From: Actinomycetota bacterium
Lineage (GTDB): Bacteria > Actinomycetota > Nitriliruptoria > Nitriliruptorales > Nitriliruptoraceae
Length of the DNA stretch: 64,000 nucleotides
Direction of reading: 5' to 3'
NCBI GenBank assembly: GCA_019347575.1
Contig: JAHWKY010000004.1
Location: 124,001 to 188,000 of the forward strand
Both the position numbers and the translations under genes were made by a program. Within the stretch, counting starts at the first letter, position 1, and the number at the start of each line of letters is the position of its first letter. Of the stretch, positions 53,772 through 63,710 are shown in pieces. The notes under the pieces are model-generated. The model was not told where the DNA came from, searched no databases, and saw only the letters and a program-made list of their open reading frames with translations.

Positions 53772-56615
53772 GTGTCCAGCGACCGCATCATCGTCCGGGG
53801 CGCCCGCGAGCACAACCTCAAGAACATCGATCTCGAGCTGCCGCGCGAGGCCCTCGTCGTCTTCACCGGCCTGTCCGGATCCGGTAAGTCGAGCCTCGCC
53901 TTCGACACCATCTACGCCGAGGGGCAGCGCCGCTACGTCGAGTCGCTGTCCGCCTACGCACGCCAGTTCCTCGGTCAGATGGACAAACCCGACGTGGACT
54001 TCATCGAAGGCCTGTCGCCGGCCATCTCGATCGACCAGAAGTCGACGTCGCGCAACCCGCGGTCCACGGTCGGCACCATCACCGAGATCTACGACTACCT
54101 GCGCCTCCTGTTCGCCCGGGTGGGCACACCGCACTGTCCCAACTGCGGCCGCGAGATCGCGTCGCAGACGGCGGAGCAGATCGTCGATCAGGTCCACGAG
54201 CTCCCGGCCGGGACGAGGTTCCAGGTGCTCGCGCCGGTGGTCCGCGGCAGGAAGGGTGAGTACGCCGCGCTGTTCCAGCAGCTGTCCAAGGACGGGTACG
54301 CCCGCGTCCGCGTCGACGGCGACGTCCACGCGCTCGACGACGTCCCCAAGCTCGCCAAGAACCGCAAGCACTCGATCGAGGTCGTCGTCGACCGCCTCGT
54401 GCAGAAGCAGGACATCCGCCGACGGCTGACCGATTCGATCGAGACCGCGCTGCAACTCGCTGAGGGCGTCGCGCAGATCGAGGTGGTCGCTGGTCCCGAT
54501 GACGACTTCGAGCCCGAGCTACTGACCTTCTCCGAGCACCTCGCCTGCCCACACTGCGGTCTGAGCTTCGACCAGCTCGCGCCGCGCAACTTCTCGTTCA
54601 ACTCGCCCTACGGGGCCTGCGAGGAGTGTTCCGGTCTGGGGGTGCAGCTCCAGGTCGACCCCGAACTCATCATCGGGGACGAGGACCTCACCGTGGCCGA
54701 GGGTGTCGTCCTGCCGTGGGCAAGCGGCCACCAATCGAACTACTACGAGCAGCTGCTCCGTGCGGTCATCCGTGACCAGGGCGGGGATCCCGATGCGTCC
54801 TGGGGCGAGCTGCCGGGATCCGTGAGGGACGCGATCCTCGACGGTCTCGACCACAAGGTCCACGTCCAGTACACGAACCGCTACGGCCGCCGACGCGCTT
54901 ACCGCGCCAACTTCGAGGGTGTGCTCAGCAGCCTCCTGCGTCGCTACGAGGAGACCGACTCGGACTGGGTGAAGTCCCAGATCGAGCAGTACATGCGCGA
55001 GATCCCCTGCCCCGCCTGCCGTGGCCAACGGCTCAAGTCACTGCCGCTCGCCGTCACCGTCGGACAGCTCAACATCGCCGAGCTCACCGCGATGTCGGTC
55101 GGCGAAGCGCAGGGCTGGATCAGCCAACTCGAGCTCACCGACCGGCAGGAGCTCATCGCGGCGCGGGTCCTCAAGGAGATCCGGGCGCGTCTGACCTTCC
55201 TGCTCGACGTGGGCCTGGAGTACCTCACGCTCGACCGTCCCGCCGGATCGCTGTCAGGGGGCGAGGCCCAGCGCATCCGGCTCGCGACCCAGATCGGCGC
55301 CGGACTCGTCGGAGTGCTCTACGTCCTCGACGAACCGTCGATCGGCCTGCACCAGCGCGACAACGCGCGGCTCATCGAGACGTTGCTGCGGCTACGCGAC
55401 CTCGGGAACACGCTGATCGTGGTTGAGCACGACGAGGCCACCATCGAGGCGGCCGACCACATCGTCGACATCGGTCCTGGCGCCGGGGAGCACGGAGGCG
55501 AGATCGTGCACTCCGGGACGCTCGCCCAGCTCAAGCGTGAGAAGCGCTCGATCACCGGCCAGTACCTCGTCGGCAAGCGCTGGATCGAGGTCCCCGAGCA
55601 GCGCCGCGCGATCGATCCCGACCGGGTGCTCCGGGTTATCGGTGCCACCGAGCACAACCTCCACGAGATCGATGTCGAGTTCCCGCTGGGCACCTTCACG
55701 TGCCTCACCGGGGTGTCCGGCTCGGGCAAGTCCACCCTCCTGAACGAGGTACTGGCGCGCGTGCTGATGCGCCACGTCTACAGCTCCCGCGAGGCCCCCG
55801 GACGACACAAGCGCGTCGAGGGGCTCGACCTGGTGGACAAGGTCGTGGTCGTCGACCAGTCCCCGATCGGACGCACCCCCCGCTCGAACCCCGCCACCTA
55901 CACCGGCGTCTTCGACCACATCCGTAAGTTGTTCGCGAAGACCCCCGAAGCCAAGGTGCGTGGCTACCAGCCGGGACGTTTCAGCTTCAACGTCAAGGGG
56001 GGTCGGTGCGAGGCATGCAAGGGCGACGGGACGATCAAGATCGAGATGCACTTCCTCCCCGACGTGTACGTGCCGTGCGAGGTGTGCAAGGGTCGCCGCT
56101 ACAACCGCGAGACGCTCGAGGTGCACTACAAGGGTCGGACCATCAGCGAGGTGCTGGACATGACGGTCAGCACCGCGCGGACCTTCTTCAGCAACATCCC
56201 GGCCATCGAGGCTCACATGGCGACGCTCGAGGACGTCGGTCTGGGCTACATCCGGCTCGGCCAGCCGGCGACCACTCTGTCAGGTGGTGAGGCCCAGCGG
56301 GTCAAGCTCGCCAGCGAGCTCAAGAAACGCGCGACCGGGCAGACCGTCTACATCCTCGACGAGCCAACGACCGGGCTGCACTTCGAGGACATCAAGCGGC
56401 TGCTCGATGTCCTCCACCGGCTCGTCGAGAAGGGCAACACGGTCATCCTCATCGAGCACAACCTCGACGTGATCAAGACCGCCGACTACGTGATCGACCT
56501 CGGACCCGAGGGCGGTGATGGCGGTGGCACGGTCGTCGCGCTCGGCACGCCGGAGGACATCATCGAGGTGCCCGCGTCCTACACCGGCAAGTTCCTGCGC
56601 GAAGTGCTCAAGTAG
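53772..56615 (+). CDS. uvrA: Excinuclease ABC subunit A
   Basis: 947 residues from GTG 53772. DNA-damage sensor with two ABC modules. First Walker [10 protein letters not shown], second GVSGSGKST; signatures [12 protein letters not shown] and [12 protein letters not shown]. Zinc modules: CPHC with CEEC, and CEACKGDG with CEVCKGRR. The C-terminus is EVLK-stop. Those last codons (GTG CTC AAG TAG) are part of the REP-like repeat starting at 56604. Controlled by the SOS box upstream. Confidence 0.97.
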
Positions 56616-56724
56616 CGCAGCGGTAGCACAGAAGGACGTGCTCAAGTAGCGAAGCGGTAGCACAACCCGAACGTGCTCAAGTAGCGCAGCGGTAGCACAG
56701 AACGAGGTGCTCAGGTAGCGCACC
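56604..56724 (+). repeat. Cluster of four REP-like repeats (short type) over the uvrA stop
   Basis: Units at 56604-56629, 56638-56663 and 56673-56698 are 26 bases each and nearly identical, with outer arms GTGCT/AGCAC and centre AGCG-(C/A)-AGCGG. A fourth, at 56707-56724, is broken. The period is 34-35 bases. The first unit provides the codons Val-Leu-Lys-stop of uvrA. Probable terminator or mRNA-stabilising structures. Confidence 0.9.
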
Positions 56725-56745: not shown

Positions 56746-56761
56746 TACCGTCCCAGCGATG
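56746..56761 (+). promoter_or_regulatory. Probable leaderless promoter of the ubiA-like gene
   Basis: A TACCGT -10 (56746-56751) and 7-base spacer lead directly to ATG 56759, without a ribosome-binding site. Confidence 0.5.
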
Positions 56762-57670
56762 ACCCAGGGCACCTCGTCCGCACCTGCTCCCGCGCCCCCA
56801 CGCTCCGTCGTCGGTGGCCTGATCCGGGCTGCACGACCCCAGCAGTGGCCCAAGAACGTCCTCGTGTTCGCCGCCCCGGGCGCCGCCGGCGCCCTGTTCG
56901 AGGCCGACGTGCTCGGTCCGACGCTGCTCGCCCTGGTCGCCTTCGTGCTGGCATCGGCGGGCACCTACCTGGTCAACGACGTCGCGGATCGAGAGGAGGA
57001 TGCGCGACACCCCGTCAAGCGTTCCCGACCGGTGGCGGCGGGACTCGTGCCGTACCGCCTGGCGGCCGGGGTCGGCATCGTGCTCCTCGCCGTCGCGGTG
57101 GCCCTCCCGTTCACGATCGGGGCGCCCGCCCTCGCAGCCGTCATCGGGACGTACGTGGCGATCACCGCCGCGTACAGCGCGTGGTTGAAGCACGTCGCCC
57201 TGATCGATCTCGTGGCGGTCGCCGCGGGCTTCGTGCTGCGCGCGGTCGCCGGAGCGGCTGCGACCGATCTCGCGCTCAGCAAGTGGTTCCTGATCGTGGC
57301 GTCCTTCGGGTCGCTCTACGTCGTCGCGAACAAGCGGTTCGCGGAGCTGCGAGCGGGCCTCGACCGCACCCGACCGGCGCTGGCGGCGTACACCCCCGAG
57401 TTGCTCCGAGAGATCCGCTTCACCTCGGCCGCGGTGACGATCGCGGCGTACGTGCTGTGGGCGTTCGAGAACGCCGAGATGCTGGGCGCATCGGCCTTGT
57501 TCGAGCTCTCGATCGTGCCGTTCGTGCTCGCGCTGTACCGCTACGCGCTCGCGGTGGACCAGGGCGCCGGTGAGGCTCCGGAGCAGATCTTCCGGCGCGA
57601 TCGACCGATCCAGATCCTCGCGTTGGTGTGGGCGGTGCTCTTCGCGGTGGCGGTGACGCGTGTCCGGTGA
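56759..57670 (+). CDS. ubiA: Decaprenyl-phosphate phosphoribosyltransferase (UbiA family)
   Basis: 303 residues with about nine membrane helices. [14 protein letters not shown] at the N-terminus. The Asp-rich [20 protein letters not shown] binds phosphoribosyl pyrophosphate. A second Asp-region ([22 protein letters not shown]) follows, as in mycobacterial Rv3806c. It would transfer phosphoribose to decaprenyl phosphate, the first step to the arabinose donor DPA. Direct linkage to DprE1 and DprE2 supports this. It overlaps the dprE1 start by 11 bases. Confidence 0.9.
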
Positions 57671-59039
57671 GCGCCGCGATCCGCTGCCCACTCGGCGCGC
57701 CGTGCTGACCGGGTGGGGCCGTACCGCGCCGTCGGCGGCGGATGTGTTCGCGCCCACGGTGCCCGAGGACGTCGGTCGAGCGATCGGAGCGGCGGGGGAG
57801 CGGGGCGTGCTGGCGCGGGGCCTGGCGCGCAGCTACGGCGACGCGGCCCAGAACGCCGGCGGGCTCGTCCTCGACATGACCCACCTCGCCGCGGTGCGTG
57901 CCTTCGATCCCAGAACCGGGCTGCTGACGGTCGACGCCGGTGCGTCGCTGGACGCCTTGATGCGCGCGTTCGTCCCACGCGGCTGGTTCGTCCCCGTGAC
58001 CCCAGGGACGCGCCACGTCACGGTGGGTGGAGCGATCGCCGCCGACATCCACGGCAAGAACCACCACGTCGACGGCACCTTCAGCCAGCACGTGACCGAG
58101 CTGGTCCTGGCAAGCCCATCCGGGGTCCACCGCGCGACCCCCGAAGACGAGCTGTTCTGGGCGACGGCAGGAGGGATGGGTCTCACCGGGATCGTCACCG
58201 AGGCCACCGTGCGTCTGCTGCGGATCGAGACGAGCCGGGTCGTGGTGGACACCGAGCGGGCGTCCGACCTCGACGATCTCATGGCCCGCATGGTCTCCGG
58301 CGACGAACGCTACCGCTACTCCGTCGCGTGGATCGACCTGCTCGCCGCCGGGGCAGCGCTCGGCCGTTCGGTGCTCACCCGTGGCGACCATGTGTCGGTG
58401 GACGCCCTGCCCACCCTGCAGCGCGACGAGCCGCTGGCGTTCGATCCACAGGAGCTCATCAGCGCCCCGCCATGGATGCCACCCAAGCTCCTGAACCGGC
58501 TCACGATCCGCGCGTTCAACGGGGCGTGGTACCGCAAGGCGCCGAGGGAGCGTCGGGGCGAGATCCAGACCATCCCCGCCTTCTTCCATCCTCTCGATGC
58601 CGTCGCAGGTTGGAACCGGATGTACGGATCGCGCGGCTTCCTCCAGTACCAGTTCGTCGTGCCCGACGCGGCGGCCGAGGATCTTCGTGCGATCGTCGAG
58701 GAGCTCTCACGGGCGCAGGTAGCCTCGTTCCTCGCCGTCCTGAAACGGTTCGGTGCGGCGAACCCCGGGCCGCTGTCGTTCCCTGCTCCCGGCTGGACCT
58801 TGGCCCTCGACCTCCCGGTCGGTGATCGCCGCCTCGCGCCGATGCTTGAGCGGTTCGACGACCGCGTGGCTGACGTCGGCGGCCGCGTCTACCTCGCCAA
58901 GGACTCCAGGCTCCGCCCCGAGCATCTACCGATCATGTACCCACGACTCGATGAGTGGCGCAAGGTGCGCGACAGCGTGGATCCCGATCGTCTCCTGAAC
59001 TCCGATCTGGCCCGCCGCCTCCGCCTCCTCGAGTCGTGA
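57660..59039 (+). CDS. dprE1: Decaprenylphosphoryl-beta-D-ribose 2'-oxidase
   Basis: 459 residues from GTG 57660. FAD-linked (VAO-fold) oxidase that makes the 2-keto intermediate reduced by DprE2. FAD-binding stretches: [13 protein letters not shown] and [21 protein letters not shown]. The His of GKNHH is kept, as is the Lys of YLAKDSR. The position of mycobacterial Cys387 (GWNICVDFP) is Ala382 here (GWTLALDLP). That Cys is not needed for catalysis but is the covalent target of benzothiazinones. It acts at the membrane or periplasm with DprE2. Confidence 0.92.
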
Positions 59040-59060: not shown

Positions 59061-59822
59061 ATGCGTGATGCTCTCGGTTCGATCCGCAGCGTCCTCGTTC
59101 TCGGAGGAACGTCCGAGATCGGCCTCGCGACCGCCGAGGCGCTGGTGCGGCAGCGCGGCGCGACGAGGGTCGTGCTGGCAGGGCGCGACCGTCCCAGGAT
59201 GCAGGCCCGTGCCGCTGCTCTCGAGCGGGCAGGAGCGCAGGTCGACCTCGCGGACTTCGACGCCGAGGCGGTGGACGCCCACGAGGGGGTCGTGGAGCAG
59301 ATCTGGCAGGAGCACGGCGACATCGACGTCACGATCGTGGCGTTCGGTGTCCTCGGTGACCAGGCCGTTGCCGAGAAGGACCCGCGTACCGCAGTCCACA
59401 TCGCGATGGTGAACTACGTCGGGGCGATGTCGGTGGGCCTCCACGTGGCGAACCGGATCGAACGGCAGGGGCACGGCACGATCGTCGTCCTGTCATCCGT
59501 CGCCGGTGAGCGTGCTCGCCGTGCCAACTACGTGTACGGCTCGTCCAAAGCCGGCCTCGATGCCTTCGGCCAAGGCCTCGGCGATCGCCTCGCCAAGGCC
59601 GCCGGTCACGTGCTCGTCGTCCGTCCCGGTTTCGTGCACACGCGCATGACCACGGGCATGGATCCCGCCCCGTTCTCGACGACACCGGAGGCGGTCGCGA
59701 CCGACATCGTGCGTGCCCTCGACAGACGCGCGCACACGGTGCACTCGCCCAACGTCCTCCGCTGGGTCATGACCGTCCTCCGTCACCTACCCCGCGCGCT
59801 GTTCCGGCTGCTCCCGCGTTAG
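59061..59822 (+). CDS. dprE2: Decaprenylphosphoryl-2-keto-ribose reductase
   Basis: 253 residues from ATG 59061 (GGAG upstream). Short-chain dehydrogenase that uses NAD(P)H to complete epimerisation of ribose to arabinose on the lipid carrier. Nucleotide motif LGGTSEIGLATA (14-25), catalytic Ser145/146 (VVLSSVAG) and Tyr159-x3-Lys163 (YGSSK). Its 3' end overlaps the convergent membrane-protein gene by 36 bases. Confidence 0.92.
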   Translation: MRDALGSIRSVLVLGGTSEIGLATAEALVRQRGATRVVLAGRDRPRMQARAAALERAGAQVDLADFDAEAVDAHEGVVEQIWQEHGDIDVTIVAFGVLGDQAVAEKDPRTAVHIAMVNYVGAMSVGLHVANRIERQGHGTIVVLSSVAGERARRANYVYGSSKAGLDAFGQGLGDRLAKAAGHVLVVRPGFVHTRMTTGMDPAPFSTTPEAVATDIVRALDRRAHTVHSPNVLRWVMTVLRHLPRALFRLLPR

Positions 59823-61712
59823 TGCCCAGACGACGGCGAGCAAGAAGGCCCCGCGGGCGATCCATAGCCACGCCTGCGGCCAGGCACGGAGCATCCCGAG
59901 GCTGATCCAGTCGGGGTGGTTGACGGCGTACGTCTGCGCGAAGCGATGGGCGGCCGGATCTTCGGTCCGACAGTAGATGCGGGCCACCGGATCGCCGTCG
60001 CGATCGGCGAAGGCCACGTGCGGATCGCGGTCCTGCTCGTTCCATCCCGCGGCCGCCGTGGGAGGCGGTTGCACCTCGAACTCCTCGGTGGACGGTCGGA
60101 GGAGGCGGTAGACGCCGACGGGCGGGCCCGCCTGGTGGTCGGGGCGCCCCGACAGCGACAGTGGCTGTTCGCGTCCACCGGTACGCGCGACGACGGCGGC
60201 TGGCGGCTCCGATGCGAAGGTCAGGCCCACCGCCTCGGCCTCGCACGGCGGCCGGAAACGGAGGGTCGCCCCCTGCTGCCAGGCGTCGTTGTGCCACTGG
60301 TCGACGACTGGGGTCAGGCCCTCGAACGTGCCGCTCGCGTAGACGATGTCGATGTAGGTGCGTACGTGCATCGGCTCGAAGCTGAGCGCGAGCGCGGCGA
60401 TCCCCGCGAGGGCGACCGTGCCGACGCGTCGCTCGAACGCCACGACGGCGCCGCCGGCCAACAGTACGACGAGCGGCACCAGGGACGTGTACATCATCCG
60501 GCCCATGGTGATCTGGGCGCCTCCGAGGGTCGCGTACACGATGACGAGGAACGTGACGAGCGTGATCGGTGCCGTCGCCAGCAGCCACCCGATCGCGGCG
60601 AACTCTCCGGTGCTGCGCCGCCGTCGCGCCCTCAGCAGACCTACGACCGAGGCTCCGACCACGGATGCAGACCACACGGCGGTCTGGGCGTCGAGCAGCA
60701 TGAAGTCGAGGAGCGAGGTCTTGGGCACGACCTGGCCGTTCCAGTACGAGGCGACGGCCAGCTCGACGTGCTGCCAGATCCCCCCTGGACTGAGAGGGAG
60801 GGCGGGTTGGAGGGGTCCCGTGATCGTCGACAGGACCTCATCGGCCGCGGACGGAGAGCCGTACGCAGCCAGGTTCCAGATGAGCCACGGGACGTACACG
60901 AGGACACTGGCACCCGCCGCGAGACCCAACCAGCGGGCTCCGTCGTGCCACGTGTGCCTGCCGATCACGACGGCGGCGGCCACGCCGGAGGCGACGTACA
61001 CGGGTACGGGTACCGCTGTGCTCTTGACGAGCAGCGCGGCACCGATGAGCACACCAGTCGCTACCGCCAGACGCGTCGTCAGTCCGTACCGGATCGCCCG
61101 CGCCGTGGGGATCATCGCCGCCGCAGCAGCTGGGACGAGTGCGTCGTTGGTGACCGTCGCCAGGTTGGTGTTGAAGCCGCTGACGAGGACGAGGAGCGTA
61201 GGCGCGAGCAACCACACCGACGGTCTGCGTGGGAAGAGTTCGCGTGCGAGCCCGTAGGCCACCAGGACGGCGAGGAGGCTGATCGCGACCGTTGCCCCAC
61301 GGACCGCGAAGATCGCGGATCGGATACCGGCGAGGGACCCCAACCGCTGCGGCGCCAGCATCGACACGTAGTACAGCGGGGGCTGTCCGGCCTCGTACTG
61401 CTCTCGGGCTGCACCCCACCGCTCGTCATCAGCCTCACCGCGGAACGGCTGCGATCGCGTGCTCCCGACGGCCGTCGCCAACGCCACCTCGAGCACCTCA
61501 TCCGGGACCAGATCCTCACCGATGACCGGGACGTCGCCTTCCCCGAGAGCGGCCATATAGCTGTAGTGCTGGGGCTCGTCGATGGGGCTCCAGACCTCGA
61601 TCGTCGCCGCCCAGAAGAGCCCGCGGACCAGGCCGGCGAGCACGATCGCGACGAGGATCCAGCGGTGTCGGGGCGGGACGTCAAGGAGCCGTGGTGCGGA
61701 GGACGTGGGCAC
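59787..61712 (-). CDS. GT-C-like multispanning membrane protein
   Basis: 641 residues with 11-12 predicted membrane helices and an extracytoplasmic C-terminal domain. The first external loop has the acidic motif WSPIDEPQHYSYMAALGEG. Then EQYEAGQPPLYYVSML follows. This is the pattern of polyprenyl-phosphate-sugar-dependent GT-C enzymes (GT39/GT83-like). It could use the DPA made by the convergent genes, or another lipid-linked sugar. No specific acceptor can be named. The start is GTG 61712; a REP-like repeat lies just upstream. Confidence 0.7.
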   Translation of the reverse strand: MPTSSAPRLLDVPPRHRWILVAIVLAGLVRGLFWAATIEVWSPIDEPQHYSYMAALGEGDVPVIGEDLVPDEVLEVALATAVGSTRSQPFRGEADDERWGAAREQYEAGQPPLYYVSMLAPQRLGSLAGIRSAIFAVRGATVAISLLAVLVAYGLARELFPRRPSVWLLAPTLLVLVSGFNTNLATVTNDALVPAAAAAMIPTARAIRYGLTTRLAVATGVLIGAALLVKSTAVPVPVYVASGVAAAVVIGRHTWHDGARWLGLAAGASVLVYVPWLIWNLAAYGSPSAADEVLSTITGPLQPALPLSPGGIWQHVELAVASYWNGQVVPKTSLLDFMLLDAQTAVWSASVVGASVVGLLRARRRRSTGEFAAIGWLLATAPITLVTFLVIVYATLGGAQITMGRMMYTSLVPLVVLLAGGAVVAFERRVGTVALAGIAALALSFEPMHVRTYIDIVYASGTFEGLTPVVDQWHNDAWQQGATLRFRPPCEAEAVGLTFASEPPAAVVARTGGREQPLSLSGRPDHQAGPPVGVYRLLRPSTEEFEVQPPPTAAAGWNEQDRDPHVAFADRDGDPVARIYCRTEDPAAHRFAQTYAVNHPDWISLGMLRAWPQAWLWIARGAFLLAVVWALTREQPEQRAG

Positions 61713-61731: not shown

Positions 61732-61757
61732 GTGCTACCGCTTCGCTACTTGAGCAC
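61732..61757 (-). repeat. Single REP-like repeat (short type)
   Basis: Reverse complement of the uvrA-downstream unit at 56638-56663, identical over 26 bases. It lies in the divergent gap between the membrane-protein gene and uvrC. Confidence 0.85.
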
Positions 61758-61811
61758 TCGGAGGCGTGAGCGTGCGCAGCGTAGTGGCGCCTCGTGTGTC
61801 ACCATCGAGGC

Positions 61812-63710
61812 GTGGAGAACCCCGCTCTCGCCTTCCGTCCCGAGCCCGGCTCGATCCCCGACGCGCCGGGCTGCTACCAGTTCAAGGACCGACGCGGTCG
61901 CGTGGTCTACGTGGGCAAGGCGAAGTCGCTCCGCCAGCGGGTCTCGAGCTACTTCCAGGCGTGGCACAACATCGCACCCCGGACCCAGGCGATGCTCGAG
62001 GCTGCGCACTCGGTCGAGTGGATCGTGGTCGACAGCGACGTCGAATCGCTGCACCTCGAGTACAACCTGATCAAGCAGCACCGGCCGCGCTACAACGTTA
62101 AGTACCGCGACGACAAGAGCTACCCCTACCTGGTCCTCACCACCTCGGAAGAGGTCCCGCGGGCGCGCGTCATGCGCAACCCCCGGTCGAAGGACGATCG
62201 GCGCTTCGGCCCGTTCGCGCACGCCTACGCCATCCGCGACACCCTGGACCTGCTCCTGCGTGTCTTCCCCGTGCGGACGTGTTCGCAGGGCATCTACGAC
62301 CGTTGCGCACGTACGGGACGGCCGTGCCTCTACTACCACATCGGTCGTTGCTCGGCTCCGTGCGTCGGGCACGTGTCGGTGGATGAGCACCGCACGCTCG
62401 TCGAGGCACTGGCCGACTTCCTCGACGGCAACAGCGCGCCCGTCCTCGATCGCCTCGAGAGCCAGATGCGCGAGGCGTCCTCCGAGCAGGAGTACGAGCG
62501 CGCGGCGATGCTGCGCGATCAGCTCTTCGCCGCCCGCCGAGCGCTCGAGAAGCAGCAGATGGCGCTCGACCGCCCCGAGGACCTCGATGCCATCGCGGTC
62601 CACCAGGACGAGCTCGAGGCCGCCGTTCAGGTCTTCTTCGTGCGCGGCGGACGCGTCGTCGGACGCAAGGGCTGGACCGTCGACAAGGTGGAACCCCTCC
62701 AGCTGGCGGAGCTGTTGACCTCGTTCCTCCTCCAGTTGTACGAGGAACGTGATGACGACGTCCCACCCCTCGTACTCGTGCCGACCGAACCCGAGGACGC
62801 GGAGGCGCTGTCGGACCTGCTCGCGGAACTGCGCGGCCGGAACGTGGCCTTCCGCGTGCCGCAACGAGGGCACAAGCGCGCCCTCCTGGACACGGTCGCC
62901 GAGAACGCGCGCGAGTCGTTCCAGCGCCACCGGCTGAAGCGTGCGTCGGACTTCAACACACGATCGCAGGCGCTCCGTGAGCTGCAAGCGGCTCTCGATC
63001 TCGACGAGGCGCCCTTGCGTATCGAGTGCTTCGACATCAGCCACCTCGGCGGTACCGAGGTCGTGGGCTCGATGGTGGTGTTCGAGGACGGGCTGCCGCG
63101 CAAGTCCGACTACCGGCGCTTCAAGCTCTCACTCGACCGCAACGACGACTTCGCAGCGATGCGTGAGGTGATCCGCCGACGCTTCCGCCGCTACATCGAC
63201 GAGCAGTCCGCGCCGGTCGAGGGCCGCAGGTTCGCCTACCCGCCCAACCTGGTGATCGTCGACGGAGGAGCGGGGCAACTGGGGGCAGCACTCGAGGGGG
63301 TCGGGGATCTCGACCTCGACGGCGTCGAGTTCGCTGCTCTGGCGAAGCGCTTCGAGGAGTTGCACCGACCCGACCAGGCTCGCCCGGTGGCCCTCCCCCG
63401 CGGCAGCGAGGCGCTCTACCTCGTGCAGAGGATCCGCGACGAGGCTCACCGCTTCGCCATCACCTACCAGCGTCAGCGGCGTTCGCGCGCCGTGCGCGGC
63501 TCGGTCCTCGAGGACATCCCCGGAGTGGGACCGGCGCGACGCCAGGCGCTGCTCAAGCACTTCGGATCGGTCAAGGCGATCCGACAGGCGTCGCTGGACG
63601 ACCTCGCAGCCGTGCCCGGGGTCTCGCTTACCATCGCGACCGCCGTCCGACAGCATCTGGAGTCTGCGGACGACGACCAGCCGGCGGTCGCGGGACCGGG
63701 AGGAACGTGA
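61812..63710 (+). CDS. uvrC: Excinuclease ABC subunit C
   Basis: 632 residues from GTG 61812; GTG 61794 is also possible. Dual nuclease of excision repair. N-terminal GIY-YIG domain (GCYQFKDRRGRVVYVGKAKSL), Cys-rich CSQGIYDRC...CLYYHIGRC region, and a UVR motif near residue 230 (EYERAAMLRDQLFAARRALE). The RNase H-like nuclease has RIECFDISHLGGTEVVGSMV and LVIVDGGAGQL. The end has tandem helix-hairpin-helix (IPGVGPARRQALLKHFGSVK). It overlaps rapZ by 4 bases. Confidence 0.96.
   Translation: MENPALAFRPEPGSIPDAPGCYQFKDRRGRVVYVGKAKSLRQRVSSYFQAWHNIAPRTQAMLEAAHSVEWIVVDSDVESLHLEYNLIKQHRPRYNVKYRDDKSYPYLVLTTSEEVPRARVMRNPRSKDDRRFGPFAHAYAIRDTLDLLLRVFPVRTCSQGIYDRCARTGRPCLYYHIGRCSAPCVGHVSVDEHRTLVEALADFLDGNSAPVLDRLESQMREASSEQEYERAAMLRDQLFAARRALEKQQMALDRPEDLDAIAVHQDELEAAVQVFFVRGGRVVGRKGWTVDKVEPLQLAELLTSFLLQLYEERDDDVPPLVLVPTEPEDAEALSDLLAELRGRNVAFRVPQRGHKRALLDTVAENARESFQRHRLKRASDFNTRSQALRELQAALDLDEAPLRIECFDISHLGGTEVVGSMVVFEDGLPRKSDYRRFKLSLDRNDDFAAMREVIRRRFRRYIDEQSAPVEGRRFAYPPNLVIVDGGAGQLGAALEGVGDLDLDGVEFAALAKRFEELHRPDQARPVALPRGSEALYLVQRIRDEAHRFAITYQRQRRSRAVRGSVLEDIPGVGPARRQALLKHFGSVKAIRQASLDDLAAVPGVSLTIATAVRQHLESADDDQPAVAGPGGT

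Follow-up and report, generated by a model that had tools for sequence, protein, structure and literature searches.

An actinobacterial DprE1 with alanine at the position of the cysteine that benzothiazinones attack in Mycobacterium tuberculosis

Introduction

Benzothiazinones react with Cys387 of Mycobacterium tuberculosis DprE1, and resistant M. tuberculosis mutants have Ser or Gly at this position; the available part of the same paper gives M. avium (Ala) and M. aurum (Ser) as naturally resistant species (PMC3206020). M. abscessus also has Ala at 387. BTZ-043 and PBTZ-169 are described in sections of one paper as inactive on this species, on which the non-covalent DprE1 inhibitor OPC-167832 acts (PMC9765218). 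C387A is included in a table of resistance changes excerpted from another source (PMC8152995), and the M. smegmatis C394A enzyme is reported to be active, with a kcat/Km of 8.5 vs 26.8 in the accessible text (PMC8776228). Although M. avium has Ala, certain nitro-aryl oxadiazoles act on it very strongly, with other targets not excluded by the authors in the part of the paper at hand (PMC12121777). A review contains one sentence, apparently garbled, on the covalent inhibitors' 'potency against' C387A/C387S mutants (PMC6015584). Changes of Tyr314 have been linked, in portions of two papers, to resistance against some non-covalent classes (PMC6015584, PMC5659129).

High conservation of the cysteine among actinobacterial orthologues, with a few species as exceptions, is stated in the available parts of two papers (PMC3206020, PMC6015584), and Corynebacterium glutamicum DprE1 has it, according to a section of a third (PMC3937683). 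Streptomyces and Actinomadura are said, on the basis of one genome each, to be without a DprE1 orthologue in the accessible part of another study (PMC4608729). Here we describe a dprE1 gene in a stretch of 64,000 nucleotides, referred to as the window (contig JAHWKY010000004.1 of assembly GCA_019347575.1, positions 124,001 to 188,000), from an actinobacterium of the Nitriliruptoraceae.

Results

Identity of the enzyme

The gene under study and the codon at issue are as follows.

57660 to 59039, plus strand: dprE1, encoding DprE1 (459 amino acids, GTG start), from NF053785, phmmer and AF2 fold matches
58803 to 58805, plus strand: codon GCC for Ala382, the equivalent of M. tuberculosis Cys387, from phmmer and multiple alignments

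The open reading frame scored 620.9 bits against NF053785, the DprE1 equivalog model (cut-off 500), and 73.6 bits against the FAD-binding domain PF01565. phmmer matched its product over nearly the full length to DprE1 of M. tuberculosis (chain 21gq_A, E 7.2e-128) and of M. smegmatis (4aut_A, E 1.4e-131), and residues H131 and K414 align with the equivalents of the active-site residues His132 and Lys418. An AF2 model based on 23 aligned sequences (mean pLDDT 86.7) was used purely as a fold check. The 49 best PDB matches of this model were mycobacterial DprE1 chains; 45 are so titled, and the remaining four are chains of 4pfa and 4pfd, whose titles name only M. tuberculosis with BTO or cBT. In addition, the gene is encoded beside those for DprE2 and an Rv3806c-type phosphoribosyltransferase, both of which exceed curated cut-offs. 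By family membership the protein is thus a DprE1, as had been claimed originally, and its predicted reaction is the oxidation of polyprenylphosphoryl ribose. The NF053785, Pfam, phmmer and model-based PDB matches together rule out a different FAD oxidase.

Residue 382 and the inhibitor pocket

Positions 58797 to 58811 are codons T380-L381-A382-L383-D384 of the window dprE1. They lie in the segment GWTLALDLP, which phmmer aligned without gaps to GWNICVDFP of M. tuberculosis and GWNVCVDFP of M. smegmatis. Since this gap-free alignment is part of near-full-length DprE1 matches, it upholds the assignment of Ala382 as the Cys387 equivalent that was made in the original prediction. The prediction had also described the flanking residues as conserved, which is correct for the Lys of AKDSR (K414, aligned with K418 of M. 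tuberculosis) and too strong for the immediate flank, where conservation is moderate, with four of nine residues (G, W, D and P) identical to those of M. tuberculosis. A search for a stand-in cysteine in the same pocket found none: the window protein is wholly cysteine-free, and therefore no cysteine, nearby or distant, can substitute for Cys387. The aligned part of the M. tuberculosis chain contains two, Cys129 and Cys387. If the benzothiazinone-susceptible class is defined by Cys at M. tuberculosis position 387, the window enzyme, with Ala382, falls outside it.

The two enzymes share 210 of 443 aligned residues. For a closer comparison we used 19 M. tuberculosis positions that we take to line the pocket. 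Fifteen of these assumed positions are identical in the window enzyme and four differ (S228V, Y314F, N385T and C387A); Y59, H131, K133, Q329 and K414 match M. tuberculosis pocket residues. Because the Tyr314 equivalent is a phenylalanine (Phe309), weaker binding of some non-covalent inhibitors to the window enzyme is plausible.

Survey of the Cys387 position

Occupancy of the site was surveyed in two sets of loci. The first 80 loci are those that match the window best, and are hence biased toward it. A first count at the site covered 81 rows, made up of the window and 80 out of 86 loci, with Ala in 77, Ser in two and Thr in two. Of the 86, L012 was missed by the motif and L082-L086 are distant FAD oxidases; the window's own copy, L081, was among the 80 counted. 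Because this set leans to the window, we also drew a phylum sample free of that bias. Among 396 Actinomycetota genomes, 76 including the window's own had a DprE1 over the cut-off among the matches listed. Apart from the window's own, 82 genomes contributed a total of 83 loci: 75 over the cut-off, in which G334 was counted by its frame as a whole and the window's own locus was left out, and eight below it, each with at least 433 bits. The leftover matches among those listed were partial, at 91 bits or less, except for a second G341 piece within the same region. One family in this sample, f29, had 12 Cys and eight Ala among its 20 loci, and the 63 loci of other families had 51 Ala, 10 Thr, one Ser and one Cys (L121). 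Seven plasmid-borne outgroup DprE1-like proteins from Pseudomonadota, Acidobacteriota and Bacteroidota had six Ala and one Thr.

A first joint alignment contained 164 of the 169 loci (without L082-L086, with L081 still in), the window and M. tuberculosis; omission of L081 and addition of eight plasmid loci gave 173 rows. Across these 173 DprE1-like rows the site is Ala in 142, Cys in 15, Thr in 13 and Ser in three. All but one of the Cys rows (14/15) fall in a single Mycobacteriaceae-like clade, and 150 of the 151 rows outside that clade are without Cys. At M. tuberculosis positions 228/314/385/387 the 20 f29 loci read SYNC (12) or SYNA (8), such that Ser228, Tyr314 and Asn385 are retained in all eight Ala-bearing loci. 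The 151 rows outside the clade read VFTA in 127 cases, the window among them, VFTT in 10, VFTS in three, VFTC in one (L121) and otherwise in 10.

Several individual loci in the survey deserve mention. L121 (G297:C1:2759100-2760700) is a non-mycobacterial DprE1 with Cys at 387 (GWTLCVDIP) and otherwise a Val/Phe/Thr pocket; it is predicted to be a benzothiazinone-reactive enzyme, and its Cys is an independent gain on the tree described below. Family f27 has Thr at 387 in eight of 13 loci (L138, L140, L142, L143, L144, L152, L153 and L168) and Ala in the other five, with several switches between both states on the tree. The dprE1 of L167 (G341:C1:313700-315260) was matched in two frames and is either broken or affected by a sequencing error. 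Despite the title Bifidobacterium breve on its record (CAMCTW010000118.1), L006 has a DprE1 that falls inside a tight group made up of a Candidatus Microthrix sequence and its relatives, and this record is probably a mislabelled or contaminated metagenome bin.

Direction of change at the site

A maximum-likelihood tree was built from 134 of the 173 rows after removal of the site's own columns, with the Streptomyces-titled loci among L001-L080 omitted. It is a quick tree without bootstrap, in which 43 of 130 inner forks have support below 80%. The tree needs a minimum of four switches between Cys and any other residue, a count that on the tree alone does not separate gain from loss. The branch to the f29 clade has an SH-aLRT of 100, and the DprE1 proteins of M. 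tuberculosis and Nocardia farcinica nest in that clade. Its nearest relatives have Thr (L075 and L107) or Ala (L013). Rooted toward other phyla, the tree reads as a gain of Cys on the f29 stem and another, separate one in L121. The two remaining changes lie inside the clade, where Ala may have replaced Cys twice, or Cys may have been lost once and regained in L091. This rooting relies on seven plasmid-borne long-branch outgroup rows that no branch sets apart from all other rows; Actinomycetota row L165 clusters with these seven. One of the seven, L197, is without the Lys418 and Tyr60 equivalents and may be a non-DprE1. The sister rows L075 (AYTT) and L107 (MYTT) already have Tyr314 with Thr387, and thus Tyr314 predates Cys387.

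The site counts and the tree rule out Ala as a rare or recent variant. From the aligned sequences, Ala is most likely the ancestral state and the mycobacterial Cys the exception. The original prediction had implied a cysteine that is missing or lost; this picture is not supported, as Ala is the commonest state (142/173 rows, and 6/7 outgroup rows) and Cys is, on the tree, derived in one clade and one further lineage. The window enzyme carries the whole older pocket (VFTA) and is therefore not simply 'a C387A mutant'; probably its pocket as a whole is of the ancestral type and the enzyme is not an evolved resistant variant.

The cassette and its surroundings

The genes around dprE1 are listed below.

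53772 to 56615, plus strand: uvrA, left neighbor of the cassette (Pfam UvrA domains)
56759 to 57670, plus strand: UbiA-type decaprenyl-phosphate phosphoribosyltransferase gene, Rv3806c-like (NF008978, 336.6 bits, cut-off 207; PF01040)
59061 to 59822, plus strand: dprE2, an SDR gene for the partner 2-ulose reductase (NF053786, 328.4 bits, cut-off 250)
59787 to 61712, minus strand: gene for a multi-spanning GT-C-like protein (PMT_2) of 641 amino acids, convergent with dprE2 (PF13231, 35.0 bits, cut-off 26.1)
61794 to 63710, plus strand: uvrC, right neighbor of the cassette (Pfam UvrC domains)

On the UbiA-type gene, the sister models NF008976 (259.5 bits vs 474) and NF008977 (166.4 vs 234) remained below their own cut-offs. 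The dprE1 start overlaps the end of this gene by 11 bases. At the 80 best-matching dprE1 loci, a match to the window DprE2 was present in 79 and a match to the window UbiA-type protein in 74 (E<=1e-5). Among 19 uvrC loci of family relatives, read with up to 1.5 kb of flank, uvrA was within the flank in seven; in six of these seven, uvrA and uvrC are separated by a frame that by eye resembles a mechanosensitive channel, and the genes abut in the seventh. DprE1 exceeded the cut-off in one of 14 sampled family members, among the matches listed, and DprE2 in one of 35; after that one, the highest scores were 212 and 196 bits (cut-off 250), at two places in G402. Given this rarity in its family, the cassette may have been acquired by the window lineage.

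A 26-base repeat, GTGCTCAAGTAGCGNAGCGGTAGCAC, occurs in the window at 56604-56629, 56638-56663 and 56673-56698 on the plus strand and at 61732-61757 on the minus strand. The final codons of uvrA, with the stop, overlap the first of these copies. The genome contains 142 copies (up to two mismatches), often in clusters of two to five spaced about 31-37 bases apart, and 10 relatives contain none. RNA folding of the three-copy stretch between uvrA and the UbiA-type gene was no better than that of shuffled sequences (z 0.15), and just one 8-base inverted-repeat pair was found within it.

We considered the GT-C-like gene as a source of the cassette's arabinosyltransferase. A relative of its product was present at none of the 80 best-matching dprE1 loci (E<=1e-5), some of which are cut short. 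Fifteen other sampled genomes have such a relative (E<=1e-10), and one of them (G240) has a DprE1 over the cut-off among the matches listed. No PDB relative was found at E<=1, and a single-sequence AF2 model had a mean pLDDT of 42.8. With no co-occurrence with DprE1 and no PDB relative, this role and any pathway link of the gene are not supported. The protein sequence reads DEPQHY following the first hydrophobic segment, and a beta-rich region is called in the low-confidence model. Homologues with 37-41% identity occur in four sampled genomes that have no DprE1 over the cut-off among the matches listed.

The window's own genome (98.77% complete) was also searched for the mycobacterial arabinan system. 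There was no match to Emb (PF04602) or to AftA (AftA_C, PF12249), both of which were matched in a C. glutamicum control, and no match to the GtrA family. Of the mycobacterial arabinogalactan/LAM arabinan system, the genome thus showed neither of these two marks, an Emb-type arabinosyltransferase and AftA.

Discussion

The explanation that we hold with high confidence, as a whole, is that the window encodes an ordinary DprE1, probably with an ancestral pocket, in a lipid-linked arabinofuranose (DPA) cassette, and that Ala382 would preclude covalent benzothiazinone inhibition. As judged from family membership, the UbiA-type enzyme would place phosphoribose on polyprenyl phosphate, DprE1 would then oxidize the 2'-OH with FAD, and DprE2 would reduce the product back as arabinose. 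A nitroso-benzothiazinone would find no thiol in this DprE1, such that the semimercaptal adduct should be impossible to form. Covalent benzothiazinone inhibition should therefore fail, as argued by the chemistry and by mycobacterial precedent. The original prediction had noted that known resistant variants alter this very residue, and in mycobacteria Ala or Ser does accompany natural benzothiazinone resistance according to the available parts of two papers (PMC3206020, PMC9765218). For the organism, insensitivity is only predicted, on condition that DprE1 matters for growth and that the drug reaches the enzyme.

It is likely, in our judgment, that Cys387 is a late, lineage-specific residue that would have arisen, as would Ser228 and Asn385, on the Mycobacteriaceae-like stem and a step later than Tyr314, with reversion to Ala in some members and an independent gain in L121. 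Most makers of lipid-linked arabinofuranose would then keep Val/Phe/Thr/Ala and be insensitive by ancestry, and mycobacterial 'natural resistance' by Ala would restore the ancestral residue at one position of a pocket that has otherwise changed. The converse reading, in which the ancestor had Cys and Ala382 is a resistance allele evolved under natural nitro-aromatic or other thiol-reactive inhibitors, can point to L088 and the L093 group, both of the Mycobacteriaceae-like clade, in which Cys changed to Ala; in that clade Ala accompanies resistance. However, the Cys clade is nested on the tree among Cys-less rows, with Cys in just one of the 151 rows outside it, and the window enzyme is also without the other mycobacterial pocket residues, which all eight Ala-bearing f29 loci keep (SYNA). 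We regard an evolved resistance allele as highly improbable.

Two further readings concern drug binding and substrate. Benzothiazinones might still inhibit the window enzyme well, non-covalently, despite Ala382; 15 of the 19 assumed pocket positions are as in M. tuberculosis, and OPC-167832 acts on M. abscessus in spite of its Ala. This is unlikely, however, given that BTZ-043 and PBTZ-169 are inactive on that same species in the available part of the report (PMC9765218) and that three further pocket positions differ in the window enzyme. Somewhat less doubtful, and still improbable, is that the substrate of this DprE1-family protein has another pentose or another lipid carrier, in the manner of the three-component pentofuranose systems, in which case drug sensitivity would be moot. 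Lipid or sugar could differ, since the genome has no Emb, AftA_C or GtrA family match, and lipid-linked pentofuranose pathways outside mycobacteria are described in the accessible text of one paper (PMC11127046). On the other hand, DprE1, DprE2 and the phosphoribosyltransferase each exceed a curated cut-off, and Y59, H131, K133, Q329 and K414 of the pocket are as in M. tuberculosis.

The window enzyme itself is ordinary, and it is of use chiefly in showing that the cysteine hit by the drugs is for the most part a mycobacterial trait. Our survey found DprE1 in many Streptomyces and other genera, mostly with Ala and with DprE2 and UbiA matches close by. It thereby corrects the published picture: many non-mycobacterial orthologues exist, and nearly all are without the cysteine, which would explain a narrow spectrum of covalent DprE1 drugs. 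We did not find a statement that Ala is ancestral in the literature searched, which covers few subscription journals. Natural Ala-type enzymes could serve as controls for probing the catalytic role of the cysteine and its companion residues.

Among described systems, the three-component pentofuranose systems (GT136; Citrobacter youngae O1/O2) resemble the window cassette in combining, as set out in the available part of their description, a UbiA-type polyprenyl phosphoribose synthase, an optional epimerase and a GT-C transferase (PMC11127046). In the window, by contrast, the epimerase is the DprE1/DprE2 pair, the cassette shows no flippase gene, and the GT-C-like neighbor is not associated with DprE1 elsewhere among the genomes sampled. 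M. tuberculosis DprE1 (Rv3790) is a full-length homologue with DprE2 and Rv3806c-type partners; the window enzyme differs from it in replacing Cys387, Ser228, Tyr314 and Asn385, and its genome in having no Emb or AftA_C match. The DprE1 proteins of M. avium and M. abscessus belong to the same family and have Ala at the drug-attacked position, where an adduct is not expected. They are a precedent for the predicted drug response, whereas the surrounding pocket differs: the sampled Ala-bearing members of the clade (8/8, not tied to these two species) have Ser228, Tyr314 and Asn385, and the window enzyme has Val, Phe and Thr.
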